A stretch of 36,100 nucleotides of DNA from Rhodoferax sp. (GTDB lineage Bacteria; Pseudomonadota; Gammaproteobacteria; Burkholderiales; Burkholderiaceae_C). The translations under genes and the position numbers were made by a program. Under the pieces are notes generated by a model. The model was not told where the DNA came from. It ran no database searches and saw only the letters and a list, made by a program, of their open reading frames with translations. This document shows, piece after piece, positions 6,442 through 36,100 of the stretch. The stretch is from contig JAIPDC010000011.1 of the NCBI GenBank assembly GCA_021737865.1, positions 1 through 36,100 on the forward strand. Direction: 5' to 3'. Every line of letters starts with the position of its first letter. The first letter of the stretch is position 1.

Positions 6442-8085
6442 ATGCTCGATGTGAATGCGCTCAAAGCCCAGGACCTCCAAGGCCTGAGCCAGAGCGCCAT
6501 GGTCGAGTTGGCCACAGAGATGCTGGCCCGGATCGCGGCGATGAACACTCTGCTGCAGGCACGCGACAAGCAGGCAGCCGAGCACGCCCAGGAGATCAAG
6601 TTCAAGGACACCAAGCTGGAGCGCATCACGCACGAGCTGGCGCGTCTGAAGGCCTGGAAGTTCGGAGCCAAGACCGAACGCATGAACGCCGGGCAGCGGC
6701 AGATGTTCGAAGAGACAGCGGCCGAGGATGAGGCCAGCCTGCAGGCCCAACTGCTGGCCTTGCAGGGCACATCCGAGCCGAGCACCTCGCCTGCGGCAGG
6801 CACCAGGCGCCAGCCGCGTCGCCAACCGCTGCCAGAGCACCTGCGCCGCGTCGAGCACCGCCACGAACCCGAGAACACCACATGCCCATCGCCGGGGTGC
6901 GGTCGGGCAATGGTGCGTATTGGCGAAGACGTGAGCGAGCGGCTGGATATCGTTCCAGCCGAATTCTTCGTGCAGCGCCACGTGCGCGGCAAGTGGGCCT
7001 GCAAGTGCTGCCAGCTACTGGTGCAAGAGCCCGTCGGGCCTCAGATCATCGACAAGGGCATGCCGACATCGGGGCTGCTCGCGCACACACTGGTCAGCCG
7101 CTTCGTGGACCATCTGCCGTACTACCGGCAAGAACAAATCAATGCCCGCTCTGGCGTGCACACGCCGCGCTCGACGTTGGCTGCGTGGTCTGGAGCTGCT
7201 GGGGCCAGCCTGCAGCCGCTGTATGACGCGCATCGTGCGTTCGTGCTGGGAGCGCAGGTGTTGCATGCCGACGAAACACCGGTGAGGATGCTCGACCCCG
7301 GGGCAGGCAAGACCACCAAGGCCTACATCTGGGCGTATGCCCGGGGCGAGCACGACCGCACGCCGGGCGTGATCTACGACTTCTGCGCAGGTCGGGGTGC
7401 AAAGTATCCAATGGCGTTCCTGCAAGGCTGGTGCGGCACCATCACCTGTGACGACTACAAGGCGTACGACGCGGTGTTGCGCACAGAAGGACGCAAAGAG
7501 GCTGGGTGCCTGGCGCATGCGCGCCGCAAGTTCGATGAACTGGCCAAAGCTCATGCAAGCCCGGTAGCTGCACAGGCCATCCAGCGCATGGCCGCGCTGT
7601 ACCGAATCGAGCAGCAAGCGCGGGAGATGACAGCGGCGGATCGGTTGGCACTACGCCAGTTGCACGCACAGCCGCTGTGGGACGAGTTGCATGTGTGGCT
7701 GCGGCTGGAGAGAGCCCGGGTGGCGGACGGTGGGGGCATCGCCGCTGCTCTGGACTACAGCCTCAAGCGCTGGGAGGCGCTGGGGCGCTTCCTGCACGAT
7801 GGTGATGTCAGTATCGACAACAACCACGTCGAGCGCATGATGCGCCCATGGGCGATGGGGCGCAAAGCGTGGCTCTTCTGTGGCAGCAAACTGGCTGGTC
7901 AGCGGGCCGCCATGGTGATGAGCCTCGTGCAGTCAGCCAAGCTGCATGGGCACGATCCCTGGGGTTACCTCAAGGACGTGCTGGAGCGGCTGCAGGCGCA
8001 CCCGAACCACCGGATTGATGAGTTGCTGCCGCATCGCTGGAGCCCTGCGGAAGACGGCAAAATGCCATCGCATGAAGAACATTGA
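6442..8085 (+). CDS. tnpC: IS66 transposase TnpC
   Basis: Zn-finger-like CPSPGCG/CKCC; VLHADETPVRML; CDDYKAYDAVL; GCLAHARRKFDEL; SIDNNHVERMMRPWAMGRKAWLFCGS. Confidence 0.96.
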   Translation: MLDVNALKAQDLQGLSQSAMVELATEMLARIAAMNTLLQARDKQAAEHAQEIKFKDTKLERITHELARLKAWKFGAKTERMNAGQRQMFEETAAEDEASLQAQLLALQGTSEPSTSPAAGTRRQPRRQPLPEHLRRVEHRHEPENTTCPSPGCGRAMVRIGEDVSERLDIVPAEFFVQRHVRGKWACKCCQLLVQEPVGPQIIDKGMPTSGLLAHTLVSRFVDHLPYYRQEQINARSGVHTPRSTLAAWSGAAGASLQPLYDAHRAFVLGAQVLHADETPVRMLDPGAGKTTKAYIWAYARGEHDRTPGVIYDFCAGRGAKYPMAFLQGWCGTITCDDYKAYDAVLRTEGRKEAGCLAHARRKFDELAKAHASPVAAQAIQRMAALYRIEQQAREMTAADRLALRQLHAQPLWDELHVWLRLERARVADGGGIAAALDYSLKRWEALGRFLHDGDVSIDNNHVERMMRPWAMGRKAWLFCGSKLAGQRAAMVMSLVQSAKLHGHDPWGYLKDVLERLQAHPNHRIDELLPHRWSPAEDGKMPSHEEH

Positions 8086-21751: not shown

Positions 21752-24208
21752 ATGAAAGGCATTTTGAAATTCACGTCTGCGATAGACAAAGAGGTCGGTG
21801 TCAGCGCATTTCTTCCATATTCTGGGCATGTCACACGCAACATCGTCAAGATGATGAATGGCGACATGATGTTTACCATCAGGCTGTCGGGCGCCGCCCA
21901 CCAAAGCGCGGACATATCCGATTTGAACGGTTGGCACAGTCAGTTAAACGGTTTTATCCGAAATATCAGTTCGCCCCATGTCGCGTTATGGAGTCACATC
22001 GTCCGGCGTGAAATCAACGAATACCCGGAAGGTGAGTTCGCTTCCGAATTCATCAACAACCTGAACAAGAAATATCGAAGCCGCATCGAGGAAACCACCT
22101 TGATGATTAACGAGCTGTATATCAGCATCGTATTTCGCCCACAACCGATTGCAGCAGGGCGAATCGTGGATATGTTCTCACGGCAAAGCAAAGCGCAATT
22201 GGAAGAGCTGCAGCTTGAGCATATCGAGAACATGGAAGACTTGATTTCAACGTCGATGGCGGCATTGGATCGCTACGAACCCGAATTGCTTGGGTGCTAT
22301 GAATTCAAGGGCAACCTGTTTTCTGAAACTGGGGAGTTCCTGCACTACATCCTGAACGGTGAGTGGCGCCGCTTCCCCCTTCCACGCGCAGAGATGCGGG
22401 ACGTGCTGCCCACGTCGCGGCCATTCTTCGGCAAGGGCGGCTTGATGAGTCTGCGCACGTCCACAGAAGACTACTTCTGCGCCACGCTGGCGTTTCAAGA
22501 ATACCCCGCGCACACGCACCCCGGCCTGCTCAATGAGTTGTTGTCGGTGCCCTACGAGTTCACCCTCGGCCAGTCGTTCACGTTCCTCTCTAAGCCCGTG
22601 GCGCGCGGGCGTATGACACGCCAGCAGAAGCGGCTGGTCAATGCCGGGGACGTGGCCACGAGCCAGGTCGAGGCGATTGATGCGGCCCTGGACGATTTGA
22701 CAAGCAATCGGTTCGTCATGGGCACGCACTCACTCACGTTGATGATCCGCGCGCAGAACGAGAAGGATCTGAAAGACCATATTTCGGTGGCTGGAAGCAT
22801 CCTGAGCGATGCGGGCATCAAGTGGTCGCGCGAAGACCTAGGCATGGCGGCGGCGTATTACTCCCTCATGCCCGGCAACTTCGACTATCGAATCCGCGCG
22901 GGCGACATTACCAGCCGCAACTTCTGCTCGTTTTCCAGCCTGCACAACTACCCCATTGGGCGCCTTGAAGCGAACCAATGGGGACCAGCGGTGACGATGT
23001 TCAAAACAACGTCAGGAGCGCCCTTCTACTTCTCGTTCCACAAAGGGGAAGAGGGCGCTGACGCCAAGCGGGCCGCAAAGCTGGACCCGAATCACAAGGA
23101 GCTGGCCAACACCATCGTGCTCGGAAAGTCGGGCACCGGCAAGACAGTAATCGAGTGCTTTTTGCTCGCGCAGGCCCAGAAGTTCAACAAGCCACCAGCA
23201 AAGCGCCTCACGTCCGTGGTGTTCGACAAAGACCTGGGCGCGGCCGTGGCGGTACGCGCAATGGGTGGGCGCTACTACCCGCTGAAAAACGGCGTCTCAA
23301 CCGGCTTCAACCCGTTCCAGCTCGACCCTACCCCCAACAACATCACCTTCCTGGAAAACCTCGTGCGCTACCTGGTGCGGCGCGAAGGCATGCCCATCAC
23401 GCCGCGCGAAGAAGCGGAAATTGCAAAGGCAATTGCCGGGGTCATGAACCCAGCGGTTCCAAAGGCACAGCGGCGCCTGAGCGCCATCATGCAATTCCTG
23501 AACCCCACTGAGCAAAACGGCATTTACATGCGCCTGGCGCGCTGGTGTCACGGCTTTGGCCCCCTGGGTTGGGCGCTGGACAACGCAGAAGACACCCTGG
23601 ACGTGGAAGCAAACGCCATTGTCGGCTTTGACGTGACGGAATTCCTTGAAAACGCGGAAACCAGAACGCCAATCATCATGTATTTGATGCACCGGATCGA
23701 ATCCCTATTCGATGGCCGAAGGGTGGTCATATTCATGGATGAGTTTTGGAAACTGCTCGACGATCCAGAATTCGAGGACTTCGTTAAGAACAAACTGGTG
23801 ACGATCCGAAAACAGGACGGCTTTCTCGTTTGCTTCACGCAAGCGCCAAAGCAAGTCATTCGTTCGCCCATCGCGTTTGCCATCATTGAGCAGACAGCGA
23901 CAAAGATATTCCTCCCGAATCCCGAAGCGGACAGGGATGATTACATCAAGCATTTCAAACTCTCCGAAAAAGAATATGAATTGATCCGTGATTTACCGGA
24001 AAAATCACGGCGCTTCCTGATCAAGCAAGGATCGAATTCAGTCGTAGCAGAACTTGATTTAAGAGGCTTTGATGATGAATTGGCCGTTCTTTCAGGCAAC
24101 ACGGCCACCTCGCTACTGGCTGAACAGCTCGTAGCTCAACTGGGCGAAGATCCCGCCAACTGGTTGCCTGAGTTTCACAAAATCCGCCGAGAAAGAATTG
24201 CAGCATGA
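21752..24208 (+). CDS. virB4: VirB4 ATPase
   Basis: NTIVLGKSGTGKTVIECFLLAQAQKF Walker A; RRVVIFMDEFWKLLDDPEFEDFVKNKLVTIRKQDGFLVCFTQAP. Confidence 0.97.
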   Translation: MKGILKFTSAIDKEVGVSAFLPYSGHVTRNIVKMMNGDMMFTIRLSGAAHQSADISDLNGWHSQLNGFIRNISSPHVALWSHIVRREINEYPEGEFASEFINNLNKKYRSRIEETTLMINELYISIVFRPQPIAAGRIVDMFSRQSKAQLEELQLEHIENMEDLISTSMAALDRYEPELLGCYEFKGNLFSETGEFLHYILNGEWRRFPLPRAEMRDVLPTSRPFFGKGGLMSLRTSTEDYFCATLAFQEYPAHTHPGLLNELLSVPYEFTLGQSFTFLSKPVARGRMTRQQKRLVNAGDVATSQVEAIDAALDDLTSNRFVMGTHSLTLMIRAQNEKDLKDHISVAGSILSDAGIKWSREDLGMAAAYYSLMPGNFDYRIRAGDITSRNFCSFSSLHNYPIGRLEANQWGPAVTMFKTTSGAPFYFSFHKGEEGADAKRAAKLDPNHKELANTIVLGKSGTGKTVIECFLLAQAQKFNKPPAKRLTSVVFDKDLGAAVAVRAMGGRYYPLKNGVSTGFNPFQLDPTPNNITFLENLVRYLVRREGMPITPREEAEIAKAIAGVMNPAVPKAQRRLSAIMQFLNPTEQNGIYMRLARWCHGFGPLGWALDNAEDTLDVEANAIVGFDVTEFLENAETRTPIIMYLMHRIESLFDGRRVVIFMDEFWKLLDDPEFEDFVKNKLVTIRKQDGFLVCFTQAPKQVIRSPIAFAIIEQTATKIFLPNPEADRDDYIKHFKLSEKEYELIRDLPEKSRRFLIKQGSNSVVAELDLRGFDDELAVLSGNTATSLLAEQLVAQLGEDPANWLPEFHKIRRERIAA

Positions 24209-29639: not shown

Positions 29640-30695
29640 ATGCTCGACTCATACAACACGAGCGCAGCGGTCGCGCAGCCCACGCCCCATACAGGGGAAA
29701 GGTTGGTGCGCCGGGCCATGCTCGACACGTACCTGAAGCCCATCTACCAACACTTACAGGGTGACGTTACCGAAGTTGCGATAAACAAGCCGGGTGAGAT
29801 TTGGACAGAAGGGCCTTCGGGCTGGGTGCGGCATGCAGCACCTGAAATGTCGTACCAAAGTTGCATGCACATTGGGCAACTGATAGCGACCTACAACGAA
29901 AAAGACATTTCGATTGATCGACCGATTTTGTCTGCCGCCTTGCCCGATGGGGAACGGGTTCAAGTCATTATTCCTCCGGCGTGTCTTGCGAATACGGTGT
30001 CCATGACGATCCGCAAGCCAAGCATGACCGACAAAACTTTAGAGGAGCTGGAAGCAAGCGGCGCATTCTCGAAAGTCGAAGATGCAAACGACGGGCTTCG
30101 TCCGTTTGAGACAGATTTATTGGAATTAAAGAAGCAACGTCGCATACGGGAATTCCTGCATCGTGTGGTTTTGACTAAGCGCAATTTGCTCATTGTTGGC
30201 AAAACTGGTTCTGGAAAAACCACATTAACGCGCAGTCTCATTCACTCCATTCCTAAAACTGAGCGACTGGTTACTATCGAAGATGTGCATGAATTGTTCA
30301 TGGACGACGTACCAAACAAAGTGCACTTGCTTTACGCCCGTGAAGATGAAGGCGGATCAAAAGTAACCGCCAAACAATCACTAGCTTCGTGTCTGCGGAT
30401 GAAACCCGATAGGATTTTACTCGCTGAATTACGTGGCGATGAAGCATGGGAATTCGTGAAGTCGATCAACACTGGGCACCCAGGCAGCATTAGCACCATG
30501 CACGCAAACGGTGCGTGGGAAACCTTTGAACAATTGACGGCTTTCATCAAGGATTCCCGCACTGGCGCCCACCTCGAAACTGACGACATTAAGAGACGCC
30601 TTTACACGACGATTGACGTTGTGGTGTATATGGACCGCTGGAAAGTCAAAGAAATATTCTATGACCCTGAATTTAAGCGCGCACAAATGGTTTAA
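29640..30695 (+). CDS. virB11: VirB11 ATPase
   Basis: NLLIVGKTGSGKTTLTRSLIHSIPKTERLVTIEDVHELF...GHPGSISTMHANGAWETFEQL. Confidence 0.97.
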   Translation: MLDSYNTSAAVAQPTPHTGERLVRRAMLDTYLKPIYQHLQGDVTEVAINKPGEIWTEGPSGWVRHAAPEMSYQSCMHIGQLIATYNEKDISIDRPILSAALPDGERVQVIIPPACLANTVSMTIRKPSMTDKTLEELEASGAFSKVEDANDGLRPFETDLLELKKQRRIREFLHRVVLTKRNLLIVGKTGSGKTTLTRSLIHSIPKTERLVTIEDVHELFMDDVPNKVHLLYAREDEGGSKVTAKQSLASCLRMKPDRILLAELRGDEAWEFVKSINTGHPGSISTMHANGAWETFEQLTAFIKDSRTGAHLETDDIKRRLYTTIDVVVYMDRWKVKEIFYDPEFKRAQMV

Positions 30696-32640
30696 ACCGG
30701 CACTATGGATATTTGTATCCATAGTTATAACTTTGGTATGGCTGCATCTTGCAGGCGCCGTGGTTCTGGCTGGCGTTGGGAGAGATTACAACAAGGTTAA
30801 TGCGCTTACATTTATACAATATGCGGTGTATTTCGGCGAGCAAAAGCGAATTAATACATGGCTATGGTCAGGAGCTGGATTTAGCACCGTCGCGCTGCTT
30901 CTACCACTGGTACTATTTCTTAAGCCCTCACGACAAAGCCTGCACGGAGATGCTCGTTTCGCATCGGCCCGAGAAATTCGGAAAGCAGGGTTAACGGGAA
31001 ATAGGGGAATCATCGTAGGCAAAAAAGGCTCCGGCTACTTGATGTTCGATGGCTCACAACATGTTTTGCTCTCTGCGCCAACTCGCTCAGGAAAGGGGGT
31101 TTCGGTCGTCATCCCGAACCTTCTCACTTGGCCTGAAAGCTGTGTGGTTCTGGACATAAAGCGGGAAAACTGGGATATCACCAGCGGCTATCGACGCAAG
31201 TACGGGCAGCGCTGCTACTTGTTCAACCCTGGGGCAAGCGATGGTCGAACGCATCGATATAACCCTTTGGGCTACATCAGCGAAGACCCCGGTAAACGTA
31301 TCGACGATATCCAGAAGATCGCAAACATGATCTTCCCGGATGTGCAGGGCACTGATCCTATTTGGACAGCAACTCCGCGCAGTCTGTTTCTTGGGGTCGT
31401 TTTGTTCTTGCTGGAGTCGCCCGGAAAGCCCGTAACGCTGGGCCAGGTGCTGCGAGAGACATTGACCGATGGAGATGGAAAGGACTACTTTGACAAGGCT
31501 GCGAAAGACCGCAGGGATTGCGGCAATGGACTGTCGGGTGCATGCGTTCGTGGCCTGCAAAGCTATACATCCATCGCCAGCGAGAACACGCGCAGCGGGA
31601 TCATGACCTCGTTCCGGTCGAGGCTTGAACTGTGGATGAACCCGGCGATTGACGCTGCCACCAGCGAAAACGATTTCGACTTGCGAGACCTTCGCAAGCG
31701 CAAGATGTCAATTTTCATTGGCATCACCCCTGACAACCTTGAGCGTATGGCACCGCTCATCAATCTGTTCTTTCAACAGCTTGTAGATTTAAATACTCGG
31801 GAACTCCCCTCACAAAATCCCGATTTGAAATATACGTGCCTTCTCTTGATGGACGAATTCACGTCAATGGGCAAAGTCAACATTTTGAGCAAGGGAATTA
31901 GCTTTATTGCAGGCTACGGATTGCGAATGATGCCCATCATTCAAAGCCCGGCGCAACTCACGGACGTTTATGGCCGCGAGGCCGCTGAAACTTTCCGCAC
32001 CAATCACGCCCTCAACATAGTATTTCCGCCAAAAGCATCCGAAACCGAATCTGCACGCGATATTTCCGAATGGTTAGGCTATACAACTACTAAGAGCGCA
32101 TCGAAGTCCCGAAACACTGAAATATTCAAGCGCCGCAATTCTTCGGAGAGCGTCAGCGATCAACGTCGCGCGTTACTTCTTCCTCAAGAAATAACCTCCT
32201 TGGGTGAGGAAGCAGAATTGATCGTTTTGGAAAATGTCCTCCCCATTCAAGCCAAAAAGGTTCGATATTTCGCGGACGCGAAATTCATGGATAGACTCAA
32301 GGAAGTTTCACCATCATTGAGTACTATTGGGGGAAGATTGCCCACTAAGAAAGAGATGGACGATGCAATGCGTGCTGGCGAACTGGCGGCGCCCGTTCCA
32401 CTGCTTAGCATAAATGAATATCAAGATGTAATTGCTTCTGCTGAAGGATCAATTGAGCAAGTAAGCAGCGGTACTAATCTCCATCGCGCATTTATTCCTG
32501 ATGACTATCCGCGCATTTCTGAGATTAATTTCGCACTTGATTTATCAAGCATCAAACCGCCTCCAGAAGGCGAACGCACCATAGAGAAGTTACACGAATA
32601 TGCAGACAGAATAAGCCGGGAACAGGGATTCTTAATTTAG
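30661..32640 (+). CDS. virD4: VirD4 coupling protein
   Basis: HVLLSAPTRSGKGVSVVIPNLLTWPESCVVLDIKRENWDITSGYR; LLLMDEFTSMGK; order after virB11. Confidence 0.96.
   Translation: MTLNLSAHKWFKPALWIFVSIVITLVWLHLAGAVVLAGVGRDYNKVNALTFIQYAVYFGEQKRINTWLWSGAGFSTVALLLPLVLFLKPSRQSLHGDARFASAREIRKAGLTGNRGIIVGKKGSGYLMFDGSQHVLLSAPTRSGKGVSVVIPNLLTWPESCVVLDIKRENWDITSGYRRKYGQRCYLFNPGASDGRTHRYNPLGYISEDPGKRIDDIQKIANMIFPDVQGTDPIWTATPRSLFLGVVLFLLESPGKPVTLGQVLRETLTDGDGKDYFDKAAKDRRDCGNGLSGACVRGLQSYTSIASENTRSGIMTSFRSRLELWMNPAIDAATSENDFDLRDLRKRKMSIFIGITPDNLERMAPLINLFFQQLVDLNTRELPSQNPDLKYTCLLLMDEFTSMGKVNILSKGISFIAGYGLRMMPIIQSPAQLTDVYGREAAETFRTNHALNIVFPPKASETESARDISEWLGYTTTKSASKSRNTEIFKRRNSSESVSDQRRALLLPQEITSLGEEAELIVLENVLPIQAKKVRYFADAKFMDRLKEVSPSLSTIGGRLPTKKEMDDAMRAGELAAPVPLLSINEYQDVIASAEGSIEQVSSGTNLHRAFIPDDYPRISEINFALDLSSIKPPPEGERTIEKLHEYADRISREQGFLI
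32268..32283. promoter_or_regulatory. 16-bp palindrome site 8, inside virD4
   Basis: TTTCGCGGACGCGAAA, encoding FADAK. Confidence 0.65.
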
Positions 32641-32670: not shown

Positions 32671-33921
32671 ATGTCACAAGATCAAATCAAAATTAACCCC
32701 GAAAACTCCCCGAAAGAGGATGAAGAGTTATATAAGCACAGTCCTGCTTTCGGCATCATGCAAATTAACGATCAACCAGCGACGGCAATTCGTTATGAGC
32801 ACGTTGAAAAGGACGGGCACCACCGTTACAACGTGAATTTCCTGTTGGATGGCAAGTCGGTAGTTCGATTGAAAGACTTGGACACGGAGTGCCTGGCCGA
32901 CGCTGTGGGCGACAAAAACGCGGCTTCCATCCTTGCCAGCAAGGAACGCCGGGGGGCACTCAAAGGGGAAGCGCTGTTGAACGAATATGGACTTTCGCCC
33001 AATGAAAATACCCGGCGCATGATGCTCAAGGAAGAGCGAAAGGGGACTGTGCTGGACCCGGAAGCACTAGGCGCGGTTGCGGCCAGGCGCCAGGCCGACA
33101 CGGACGCTGCAGCGAAGGAACTGGCAGTGCACCGCCAAGAGGCTTTGAATGCGATTTCTAAGGACATACGCAAGGTGGAGCAAGGCACGGGGCAGGGCAG
33201 GGACGGCGGGGACAACGAAGTCCAGTCGGATGAAGTTTTCAGCCCAGCGGAAGATGACCGTAAGCCGATAGTTCCTCAAGAGGTGGCTGCGAAATACCTC
33301 AAGGTAGGGGACAAGTACCATTTCCAGCGCAATCCGGAAGCAGTCGCGTTCCGCGATAGGGGCAGCAAGCTGGAGACACAGACAAACAGCGCCGCCGTGG
33401 CCGACTCCATGGTACGGATCGCCCAGGCGCGGGGTTGGGACGAGATTCGCGTCACAGGAAGCGAAACCTTCAAACGAGAAGTGTGGATGGAAGCGGCCGC
33501 ACGCGGCATGCAGGTACGCGGCTACTCCCCCACCGACGCGGACAAAGCGAGGCTCGCTGCAATCCAAAGCAAGGATGAGTTTCGCGGACGCGAAAACGTC
33601 AACACCGTCACGGGCAAAAAGACCCACGAACAGGGGATGGTGGATGCTTTCAAGAACGAGCGACCGGAAGCAGCGATGCAGAAGTACCCGGAACTGGCGG
33701 GAGCGTATGCGGGCGTCGAGGCAGCACGCCGCAAAGTGGATCAAGAGCGGCTATCTGTCGAACAGGCCAAGGTAGTCATGGATCGCCTGAACAAAAACGC
33801 ACTCAATGCCATTGAGCGCGGCCACGTGCCAAAGATCAACGTCACCGACAGGAACCAAGACCGCAACAGGCAACAAGAGGTGGCTGCAAGCCGCCACCGC
33901 GACAAAGAATTTGGACGTTAA
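32671..33921 (+). CDS. LPD7-domain (relaxase-associated) protein with conserved C-terminal tail
   Basis: YLKVGDKYHFQRNPEAVAFRDRGSKLETQTNSAAVADSMVRIAQARGWDEIRVTGSETFKREVWMEAAARGMQVRGYSPTDAD is LPD7-like; tail AKVVMDRLNKNALNAIERGHVP. Confidence 0.8.
   Translation: MSQDQIKINPENSPKEDEELYKHSPAFGIMQINDQPATAIRYEHVEKDGHHRYNVNFLLDGKSVVRLKDLDTECLADAVGDKNAASILASKERRGALKGEALLNEYGLSPNENTRRMMLKEERKGTVLDPEALGAVAARRQADTDAAAKELAVHRQEALNAISKDIRKVEQGTGQGRDGGDNEVQSDEVFSPAEDDRKPIVPQEVAAKYLKVGDKYHFQRNPEAVAFRDRGSKLETQTNSAAVADSMVRIAQARGWDEIRVTGSETFKREVWMEAAARGMQVRGYSPTDADKARLAAIQSKDEFRGRENVNTVTGKKTHEQGMVDAFKNERPEAAMQKYPELAGAYAGVEAARRKVDQERLSVEQAKVVMDRLNKNALNAIERGHVPKINVTDRNQDRNRQQEVAASRHRDKEFGR
33580..33595. promoter_or_regulatory. 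16-bp palindrome site 9, inside LPD7 gene
   Basis: TTTCGCGGACGCGAAA, encoding part of FRGREN. Confidence 0.65.
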
Positions 33922-34631: not shown

Positions 34632-34868
34632 ATGGCAACGACAACACAGTTCGACAGCTATTTTTTTGGCTCTGGACTTGTGGACGACGCTCGAAAGGGC
34701 GTAGCCCAAGCTGTTGCGCGCACCCGTGCCGCTGGCCTGCCCGTTGAAGGCTACGCCAGTAGCCCAGCTCCACAATCCACCAAAGACCCCTTCCCCGGCC
34801 CCACGGCGCACAGTGATGCAGCACCGGGCAAGCCCGCCGACAAAGAGCCAAAAAAAAAGCGGGCCTGA
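34632..34868 (+). CDS. Small protein encoded directly upstream of zeta toxin; candidate antitoxin
   Basis: MATTTQFDSYFFGSGLVDDARKGVAQAVARTRAAGLPVEGY...KKKRA; TGATG overlap with the zeta gene; antitoxin role inferred from position. Confidence 0.55.
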   Translation: MATTTQFDSYFFGSGLVDDARKGVAQAVARTRAAGLPVEGYASSPAPQSTKDPFPGPTAHSDAAPGKPADKEPKKKRA

Positions 34869-36043
34869 TGAGTCAATCGGGCGATGCGCAGAAGGATGGA
34901 TCTGCGCCGGTGATGTTTGTTTTTGCGGGGCCGAATGGCTCCGGTAAATCATCCATTAATGCCCAGGTTCTCAAAAATCCTGCTCTGGGTTTTTTAGGCG
35001 AGTACATCAATGCCGATGACATCGCCAAAAGTATGGAATCACAGATTCCAGACTACCAAACCCGCAACATCAAAGCCGCTGAATTAGCGGAATCGCGGCG
35101 TGTTACCGCGTTGCAGGCCGGACACTCGTTTGCTTTCGAGTCGGTTATGTCCACCCCGGAAAAGGTTGCTCTGCTGACCCAAGCACGCGAACGCGGCTTC
35201 GAGGTTGCTTTGGTCTTTGTCACCACGGACGATGCAGAAAAAAACGTCGCTCGGGTCAGCAACCGGGTCGCAATGGGCGGGCATGCCGTCGAACCGGACA
35301 CTGTGCGTCGCCGCTATGCCAGCGCCATGCAGTTGCTACCGGCTGCAGTGGAGCACTCCGACAAGGCGCTGATTTTTGACAATTCGGGCACCACGCCCAT
35401 TCGCGTTGTCACAAAGAACGGCCCGGACGTGGTGATTGAGCCCAATGCCCCGCAATGGGTGGAGGCGCAGTTTGCGGCCCCATACCGGGCTCGCCAGGCC
35501 TCGCTGAAGCAGTTGGATGCGGTCGCCAAAGGCTCGGCCCCCAACATCACGATTTCAGAAGCCGCGGCCCAGCATGGCCGAAGCTATCGTGGCAAGGTTG
35601 TTGATCAAACGGCGCACCACGCGCTGCAGGAATCCGAAGATCGCGGATTCGTTATTCACGACAAAGCGCTCGGCCCCAAGCGGGATTTTGACAACGGCAG
35701 TTACGCCCAAATCACCTACGCTTACGACAAGGGGAAAATTCCTGCTGAGGAAGTTGTTCAACGCATAGAACGGGAAGCCCGAAGCAAGGCATTCAAAGAA
35801 CTCCCTCGACAGGAAGCCGTCAAGCAACACCCGGAATTGCAAGCAAATTTCGTCCAGCTCGATGCGCTCAAAAAGCAAATTCAGGGTCAACACCTCACGG
35901 CTGCTGAACAGGCAACTGTCATGGATCGGTTGCACGAAAACATGGCCAGGGCCATTGAGCGCGGCCCGGTTCCAGGCCAAAGCGCTTCCACCGAAACCGA
36001 CAAGTCAACGCCTCCCACCCCAAGCAAGGATCACGAGCGCTAG
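34868..36043 (+). CDS. Zeta-toxin-family kinase fused to KfrB-like and relaxase-type C-terminal modules
   Basis: VFAGPNGSGKSSINAQVL Walker A; YINADDIAKSM; FAFESVMST; YRGKVVDQTAHHALQESEDRGFVIHDKALG (KfrB-like); tail ATVMDRLHENMARAIERGPVPG. Confidence 0.88.
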   Translation: MSQSGDAQKDGSAPVMFVFAGPNGSGKSSINAQVLKNPALGFLGEYINADDIAKSMESQIPDYQTRNIKAAELAESRRVTALQAGHSFAFESVMSTPEKVALLTQARERGFEVALVFVTTDDAEKNVARVSNRVAMGGHAVEPDTVRRRYASAMQLLPAAVEHSDKALIFDNSGTTPIRVVTKNGPDVVIEPNAPQWVEAQFAAPYRARQASLKQLDAVAKGSAPNITISEAAAQHGRSYRGKVVDQTAHHALQESEDRGFVIHDKALGPKRDFDNGSYAQITYAYDKGKIPAEEVVQRIEREARSKAFKELPRQEAVKQHPELQANFVQLDALKKQIQGQHLTAAEQATVMDRLHENMARAIERGPVPGQSASTETDKSTPPTPSKDHER

Positions 36044-36100
36044 ACGCCGCACCCCGCCCACTATATGATGCAATGTTATATTGAAGTCAGTTAACATAAT

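Follow-up and report, generated by a model that had tools for sequence, protein, structure and literature searches.

A conjugative T4SS operon of Rhodoferax sp. has at its 3' end the gene of a zeta-type toxin whose C-terminal tail resembles that of the protein encoded immediately after the coupling protein VirD4. The question raised by this locus is whether the toxin stays in the cell that makes it, or whether it is recognised by VirD4 and exported during conjugation. A previous, sequence-only reading had proposed that the shared tail is a relaxase/LPD7-type module serving coupling-protein recognition.

The window, that is the whole stretch of 36,100 nucleotides analyzed here, is one whole contig (Rhodoferax sp., JAIPDC010000011.1, ending at 36100), on which RepA, KorA and ParAB are followed by a topoisomerase, the VirB genes and VirD4 (Table 1). 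VirB2, B3, B5, B6, B8, B9 and B10 are encoded upstream of virD4, and the Pfam matches as a set (virB2-B6, B8-B10 and virD4, on one contig and one strand) identify a conjugative T4SS. From virD4 onwards, six genes follow one another on the same strand, coding for VirD4, an LPD7 protein, a small putative lipoprotein, an H-NS-like protein, a small ORF and zeta. The gaps from virD4 through zeta do not exceed about 30 bases and no forward terminator-like site was found between virD4 and the start of zeta; from this arrangement, the genes are predicted to be co-transcribed. No relaxase was identified in the window or in the assembled genome (a MAG that is 79% complete) with PF03432 and the pMBUI6 relaxase as queries. 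At 6442-8085 the window also carries an IS66-family transposase gene, flanked by a molybdopterin oxidoreductase region and by PhoD/DUF4062 genes; on the Comamonas C11 plasmid (L003), a DUF4062 gene likewise adjoins an alkaline phosphatase gene.

Table 1. Coordinates of the features discussed (positions in the window, unless a locus is named).
Feature	Position	Strand	Basis or remark
VirB4	22286-22897		
VirD4 coupling protein, 675 aa, last of the virB/virD4 operon	30613..32640	+	Pfam T4SS-DNA_transf, E 4.9e-115
C-terminal 46 aa of VirD4, candidate tail receptor	32500..32637	+	counterpart of the KfrC-binding segment in RA3 VirD4
LPD7 protein, 416 aa, immediately 3' of virD4	32671..33921	+	Pfam LPD7 aa 204-294, E 3.5e-22
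Tail module of the LPD7 protein, aa 326-387	33646..33831	+	BLASTP, HMM
DKEFGR, C-terminal peptide of the LPD7 protein	33901..33918	+	sequence, motif statistics
Small ORF, candidate antitoxin	34632..34868	+	sequence; ATG at 34632, GGAAAGGGG just before
Zeta-KfrB-tail protein, 391 aa, ATG start	34868..36043	+	ORF, Pfam
Zeta/AAA_33 kinase domain, Walker A GPNGSGKS including K27	34889..35389	+	Pfam, Foldseek
KfrB domain, aa 239-291	35582..35740	+	Pfam E 1.2e-9, above cut-off
Tail module of zeta, aa 308-369, predicted helical	35789..35974	+	BLASTP, HMM, AlphaFold
SKDHER, C-terminal peptide of zeta, fits [DE]xxR-COOH	36023..36040	+	sequence
Genes annotated 'ribosomal protein L7/L12' in PromA-like plasmids	L093:17230-19932, L097:16362-19091, L099:31391-34084, L100:24888-27617		

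The last gene of this run indeed encodes a zeta kinase followed by KfrB and the tail, as first read from the sequence: Zeta_toxin (aa 8-174, E 5.2e-9, 36.3 bits for a cut-off of 22.3), AAA_33 (aa 16-143, E 1.8e-10, 41.7 bits for a cut-off of 27) and KfrB all score above their Pfam cut-offs, and the zeta/AAA_33 fold together with the Walker A motif marks the protein as a zeta toxin kinase. When the kinase part of the full-length AlphaFold model was compared by Foldseek, the matches were AvrRxo1-ORF1 (E 2e-7) and epsilon/zeta (E 4e-7), and also PezT. Since AvrRxo1-ORF1, the best fold match, is reported to phosphorylate NAD (as cited in PMC5675462), a UDP-sugar substrate for the window zeta is only putative. 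PADLOC returned only weak P-loop matches to defence systems, and no viral relatives turned up with P0001 or the pMBUI6 LPD7 protein as scan queries.

The stop codon of the small ORF overlaps the zeta ATG by one base, and the zeta gene of A. temperans pEP1 is also preceded by a similar small ORF (ten sequences compared, E about 2e-14), the similarity in YS12 being weak. We infer from this pairing that the small ORF may be the antitoxin of zeta. It has no family match and no antitoxin relative was found, while the small ORFs at PezT-type loci group separately; its assignment to a known antitoxin was therefore rejected. Four close relatives have a broken zeta gene: in L009 (7860-9037) zeta aa 1-156 and the 3' portion of the small ORF have given way to an IS3-type transposase, in L003 (11858-12013) zeta begins at aa 157 adjoining IS1071, in L010 (9001) it also begins at aa 157, and in L014 (4287) it diverges past aa 81. 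The LPD7 tail is kept in L009 and L014 despite the broken zeta.

The match between the tails of zeta and of the LPD7 protein, originally noticed by eye, is well borne out: over 62 positions without gaps, 22 are identical and 39 similar (BLASTP E 7e-10), and the alignment scores 113, while 5000 shuffles averaged 24 and never exceeded 58. The tail coordinates first given were correct to within a few bases. AlphaFold models the tail, with moderate confidence, as four helices in about 70 aa followed by a disordered end. Foldseek with this model gave neither a confident relative in PDB nor a BID, and profile searches of PDB (A1, A2) found no BID chain at E values up to 10, BID itself being very divergent. 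With neither a sequence nor a fold match, the tail is not recognisable as a BID domain, and this reading was set aside. The last 22 aa of zeta hold three K or R, four D or E and, by inspection, one Q, and thus form neither a positively charged BID-type end nor a Q-rich XVIPCD-type end.

What the tail may do is suggested by KfrC of the IncU plasmid RA3. We located the tail at KfrC residues 270-330, with an E value of 0.0023 using a model built without KfrC and of 3e-6 after one iteration; hhalign (95%, E 2e-8) and a BLASTP match to the IncU LPD7 tail (2e-9) concur, establishing sequence homology between the tail and the C-terminal segment of KfrC. In two-hybrid assays, KfrC residues 244-355 bind VirD4, which on its side engages chiefly its last 46 residues; for KfrC as such, co-IP bore out the binding to VirD4, and its move to the poles takes place only with VirD4 (PMC8124265). 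IncP KfrC, which is without the RA3-type end, does not bind TraG, and no homologues of the VirD4-binding segment were reported by its authors (PMC8124265). The VirD4 of the window can be aligned at its C-terminus with its pMBUI6 and Massilia H6 counterparts, and more loosely with RA3 VirD4. We consider a VirD4-docking role of the tail likely, and by analogy with KfrC the zeta protein would itself dock on VirD4. RA3 KfrC shares with the window zeta the homologous tail and the [DE]xxR end, and differs from it by an N-terminal phosphoribosyltransferase-like domain and by its role as a stability/transfer switch (PMC8124265).

The same KfrC segment also dimerises and binds KorB, and deletion of kfrC in P. 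putida altered stability and raised transfer (PMC8124265), so that docking need not imply export. Moreover, two-hybrid assays showed no binding between RA3 VirD4 and the relaxase NIC (PMC8124265), which itself ends in the same peptide as the tail proteins. Docking is supported on this record, and export is a prediction. Dimerisation and KorB binding of the KfrC region, the effects of kfrC deletion, and the presence of a KfrB domain in the window zeta would suit a module for docking or oligomerisation that never leaves the donor: a KfrC-like link of KorB/KfrA-type proteins and VirD4, timing transfer, with zeta tethered or regulated and not exported. We regard this alternative as unlikely, though not negligible, because it leaves unexplained why relaxases, which are necessarily exported, have the same terminal peptide, and why the tail occurs on a cell-to-cell polymorphic toxin with an immunity gene.

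Both of these points emerge from the distribution of the tail and of its end. Applied to the ORFs of the fetched loci, the tail HMM reveals a mobile module found on unrelated toxins. It is present on LPD7 proteins adjoining virD4 in the window, pMBUI6, Massilia H6, Stenotrophomonas and pFBAOT6/IncU, on the window-type zeta of A. temperans pEP1, on the PezT-type zeta of pMBUI6 and pRA2, on zeta proteins of two MPF_F plasmids (L091, L092), on FicT proteins of PromA-like plasmids (pTer331 and others), several of which are preceded by VbhA-family antitoxins, and on an IncU protein annotated as a phosphoribosyltransferase, which is KfrC. The copy in Comamonas C11 is an interrupted remnant, and in the zeta copy of pMBUI6 the final ER-COOH has disappeared, apparently through a frameshift at its extreme end. 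On the Massilia sp. H6 plasmid, which has a full VirB/VirD4 operon, the tail is carried by an ADP-ribosylcyclase toxin (62590-63644; L071 8591-9645), followed by Imm74. Its toxin domain matches a solved ADP-ribosylcyclase toxin (PDB 9ro8, E 6.6e-31) and is elsewhere found on PAAR and filamentous-haemagglutinin proteins, often adjoining Imm74; a domain usually sent from cell to cell by other means is therefore tailed in Massilia.

Such a toxin with its immunity protein, from a domain otherwise delivered by PAAR or filamentous-haemagglutinin proteins, and the existence of antibacterial T4SSs (PMC6536674) might indicate that the exported zeta is mainly a weapon against plasmid-free competitors, and not an aid to establishment. 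For the window this seems distinctly improbable: zeta is paired with an upstream small ORF in toxin-antitoxin fashion, the T4SS operon is of the conjugative type and shares its contig with replication and partition genes, and killing of recipients would hinder transfer (argued in PMC5675462).

Past the disordered stretch, the tail proteins mostly end in [DE]xxR (KDHER, DKEFGR, DRDLER, DKELER, GPDLER, GPERER, EDDLER). The same ending is found in the relaxases of pMBUI6 (EKDIER), M. putida (DRDIER), pFBAOT6 (RDEDER), pTer331 (DDEQTR), plasmIII (DKER) and pRA2 (DIDR). The 62-aa tail HMM has no match on the relaxases of related plasmids, in which the extreme C-terminal peptide alone is common; the earlier view of the whole tail as a relaxase module has therefore to be abandoned in favour of a shared end peptide. 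Over 11 loci, with two redundant plasmids omitted and labels hand-set from annotation and HMM, [DE]xxR-COOH closes 21 of the 32 tail, LPD7 and relaxase proteins versus 9 of 511 other ORFs (~2%; p 4e-23), and 6/10 relaxases taken alone (p 4e-8); as several plasmids are related and the labels were given by hand, these p-values overstate independence, and the test is not blind since the motif was derived from the same proteins in which it was counted. The zeta proteins of pMBUI6 and of pRA2 are without [DE]xxR. Some zeta proteins that lack the tail but are encoded on T4SS plasmids (Stenotrophomonas, YS12) end in it too, which hints that the peptide is the more general part of the signal.

The tail is also associated with the secretion system. 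VirB4 was detected in seven of the eight tail-bearing genomes, versus 86/400 Burkholderiales overall (p 1.1e-4); tail and VirB4 lie on the same contig in six genomes, and VirD4 is encoded directly upstream of the tail gene in several. Among plasmid records, 38 of 42 with an LPD7-type tail, 47 of 62 with a Fic-type tail and 222 of 567 with zeta homologues in general are conjugative, counts that MOB typing makes too low, as pMBUI6 and Massilia H6 were typed non-mobilizable despite full VirB/VirD4 operons. Exceptions exist. On pEP1, whose tailed zeta is intact, neither VirB4 nor a T4CP was detected; pRA2 (tail, relaxase and a T4CP-like protein) and the Agrobacterium plasmid L098 (tail, relaxase and T4CP) gave no VirB4 match; and no T4SS was detected in a genome with a Fic-tail gene (G258). 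The frame of the G258 Fic-tail gene (L085 8906-9820) stops just past the tail and the terminal peptide is absent, as if the export end had decayed.

Taken as a whole, the coupling-protein recognition module suggested by the sequence-only reading gains from the VirD4 binding of the KfrC homologue, the unrelated toxin cargo and the relaxase end peptide, and is qualified by the other partners of the KfrC region and by the tails on pEP1 and in G258, where no T4SS was detected. The pEP1 case also bears on another explanation, namely an ordinary plasmid-stabilising zeta toxin-antitoxin pair whose tail came from the adjoining LPD7 gene by recombination and plays no part in export. Close zeta-KfrB homologues without a tail are common (L005, L006, L007), and on pMBUI6 (L069 10258-12044, 42113-43321) three genes with differing N-termini have an identical C-terminal half, linker and tail, showing that ends are copied between genes. 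We give this explanation only a slight chance: at 35% identity, the zeta and LPD7 tails are no recent copy of one another, pEP1 has retained both the tail and a terminal DLER at 55% overall identity to the window zeta, and the tail recurs on unrelated T4SS-linked toxins.

We return to export of the toxin, which we hold to be somewhat probable. Under this proposal, a toxin gene and its candidate antitoxin lie at the 3' end of a conjugative T4SS operon, the toxin being a zeta-fold kinase whose C-terminus would act as a portable two-part docking signal, made of a helical module of ~62 aa and of a disordered stretch ending in [DE]xxR-COOH. VirD4 would recognise this signal, probably via its acidic C-terminal segment, and pass zeta into the VirB channel together with the relaxase-DNA complex. 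The kinase would then be active in the recipient as long as the newly arrived plasmid has not begun to make the small antitoxin, and the recipient would thereby become dependent on the plasmid at once, presumably to the benefit of the latter. On balance, we moderately favour this scenario of a docking-tagged zeta exported during conjugation, which may serve establishment in recipients. More tentatively, and with chances that we place a little short of even, tail and [DE]xxR-COOH might constitute a general coupling-protein signal of IncU, PromA, pMBUI6-like and other conjugative plasmids, unlike BID and XVIPCD, giving rise to swappable interbacterial effectors that would include zeta kinases, FicT AMPylators, an NAD-degrading toxin with its immunity protein, and KfrC.

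The idea of toxins carried by conjugation is not new, given three precedents. VbhT of Bartonella pVbh, which joins FIC and BID, is secreted through a conjugative T4SS, as a Cre assay showed (PMC5675462). Like the window zeta, it is a toxin of a toxin-antitoxin system with a C-terminal T4SS signal (predicted in zeta) and is encoded beside a conjugative T4SS; unlike it, VbhT combines a BID domain with a Fic toxin, whereas the window tail is shorter, is without a detectable BID match, and in zeta runs out into a slightly net-acidic extension whose last residue is arginine. PezT/Zeta-BID proteins (tBID-alpha) of alphaproteobacterial plasmids are proposed T4SS substrates (PMC6509941) and similarly join a zeta-family kinase to a C-terminal domain in linkage with a virB/virD4 locus, but that domain is a different one, and the window type is found on beta- and gammaproteobacterial plasmids with KfrB between kinase and tail. 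Finally, work of 2017 noted zeta kinases in conjugative polyvalent proteins and proposed from context their transfer with the DNA of the element; these share with the window proteins the zeta kinase and the LPD domain vocabulary, while the parts of that description available to us include no tail, end peptide or link to VirD4.

Among the X-Tfe proteins of Xanthomonadales, toxins likewise carry at their C-terminus a module for recognition by VirD4, and immunity genes accompany some of them (PMC6536674). This XVIPCD has about 120 aa, a Q-rich end and a chromosomal killing T4SS (PMC6536674), whereas the window tail has about 62 aa, a [DE]xxR end and conjugative-type plasmids. As far as the searched open-licence PMC papers go, the features that appear new are the module itself as a signal, the occurrence of its end peptide on relaxases, the connection with KfrC and the variety of toxins that bear the tail. 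Conjugative T4SSs rely on short secretion signals that are difficult to predict (PMC5675462); if our proposal is true, the tail and end peptide, as sequence-defined features common to relaxases, accessory proteins and toxins, would make T4SS cargo recognisable in the sequences of IncU, PromA and related broad-host-range plasmids. The VirD4-binding domain of RA3 KfrC, reported to have no relatives, would gain some, and it would become possible to test whether plasmids enforce their own establishment through toxins delivered to recipients, as has been proposed.

Two further observations concern the related plasmids. PromA-like plasmids have at the virD4 position a gene of ~900 aa annotated 'ribosomal protein L7/L12' (Table 1), with a very acidic end, which is probably a misnamed coupling protein. 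Other proteins without a tail end in [DE]xxR on T4SS plasmids, namely IncU TraC3, a DUF3991/TOPRIM protein and zeta toxins (L096 12424-14118; L102 23664-24572; L005 7971-8909; L072 16181-17347), and may represent further T4SS cargo.
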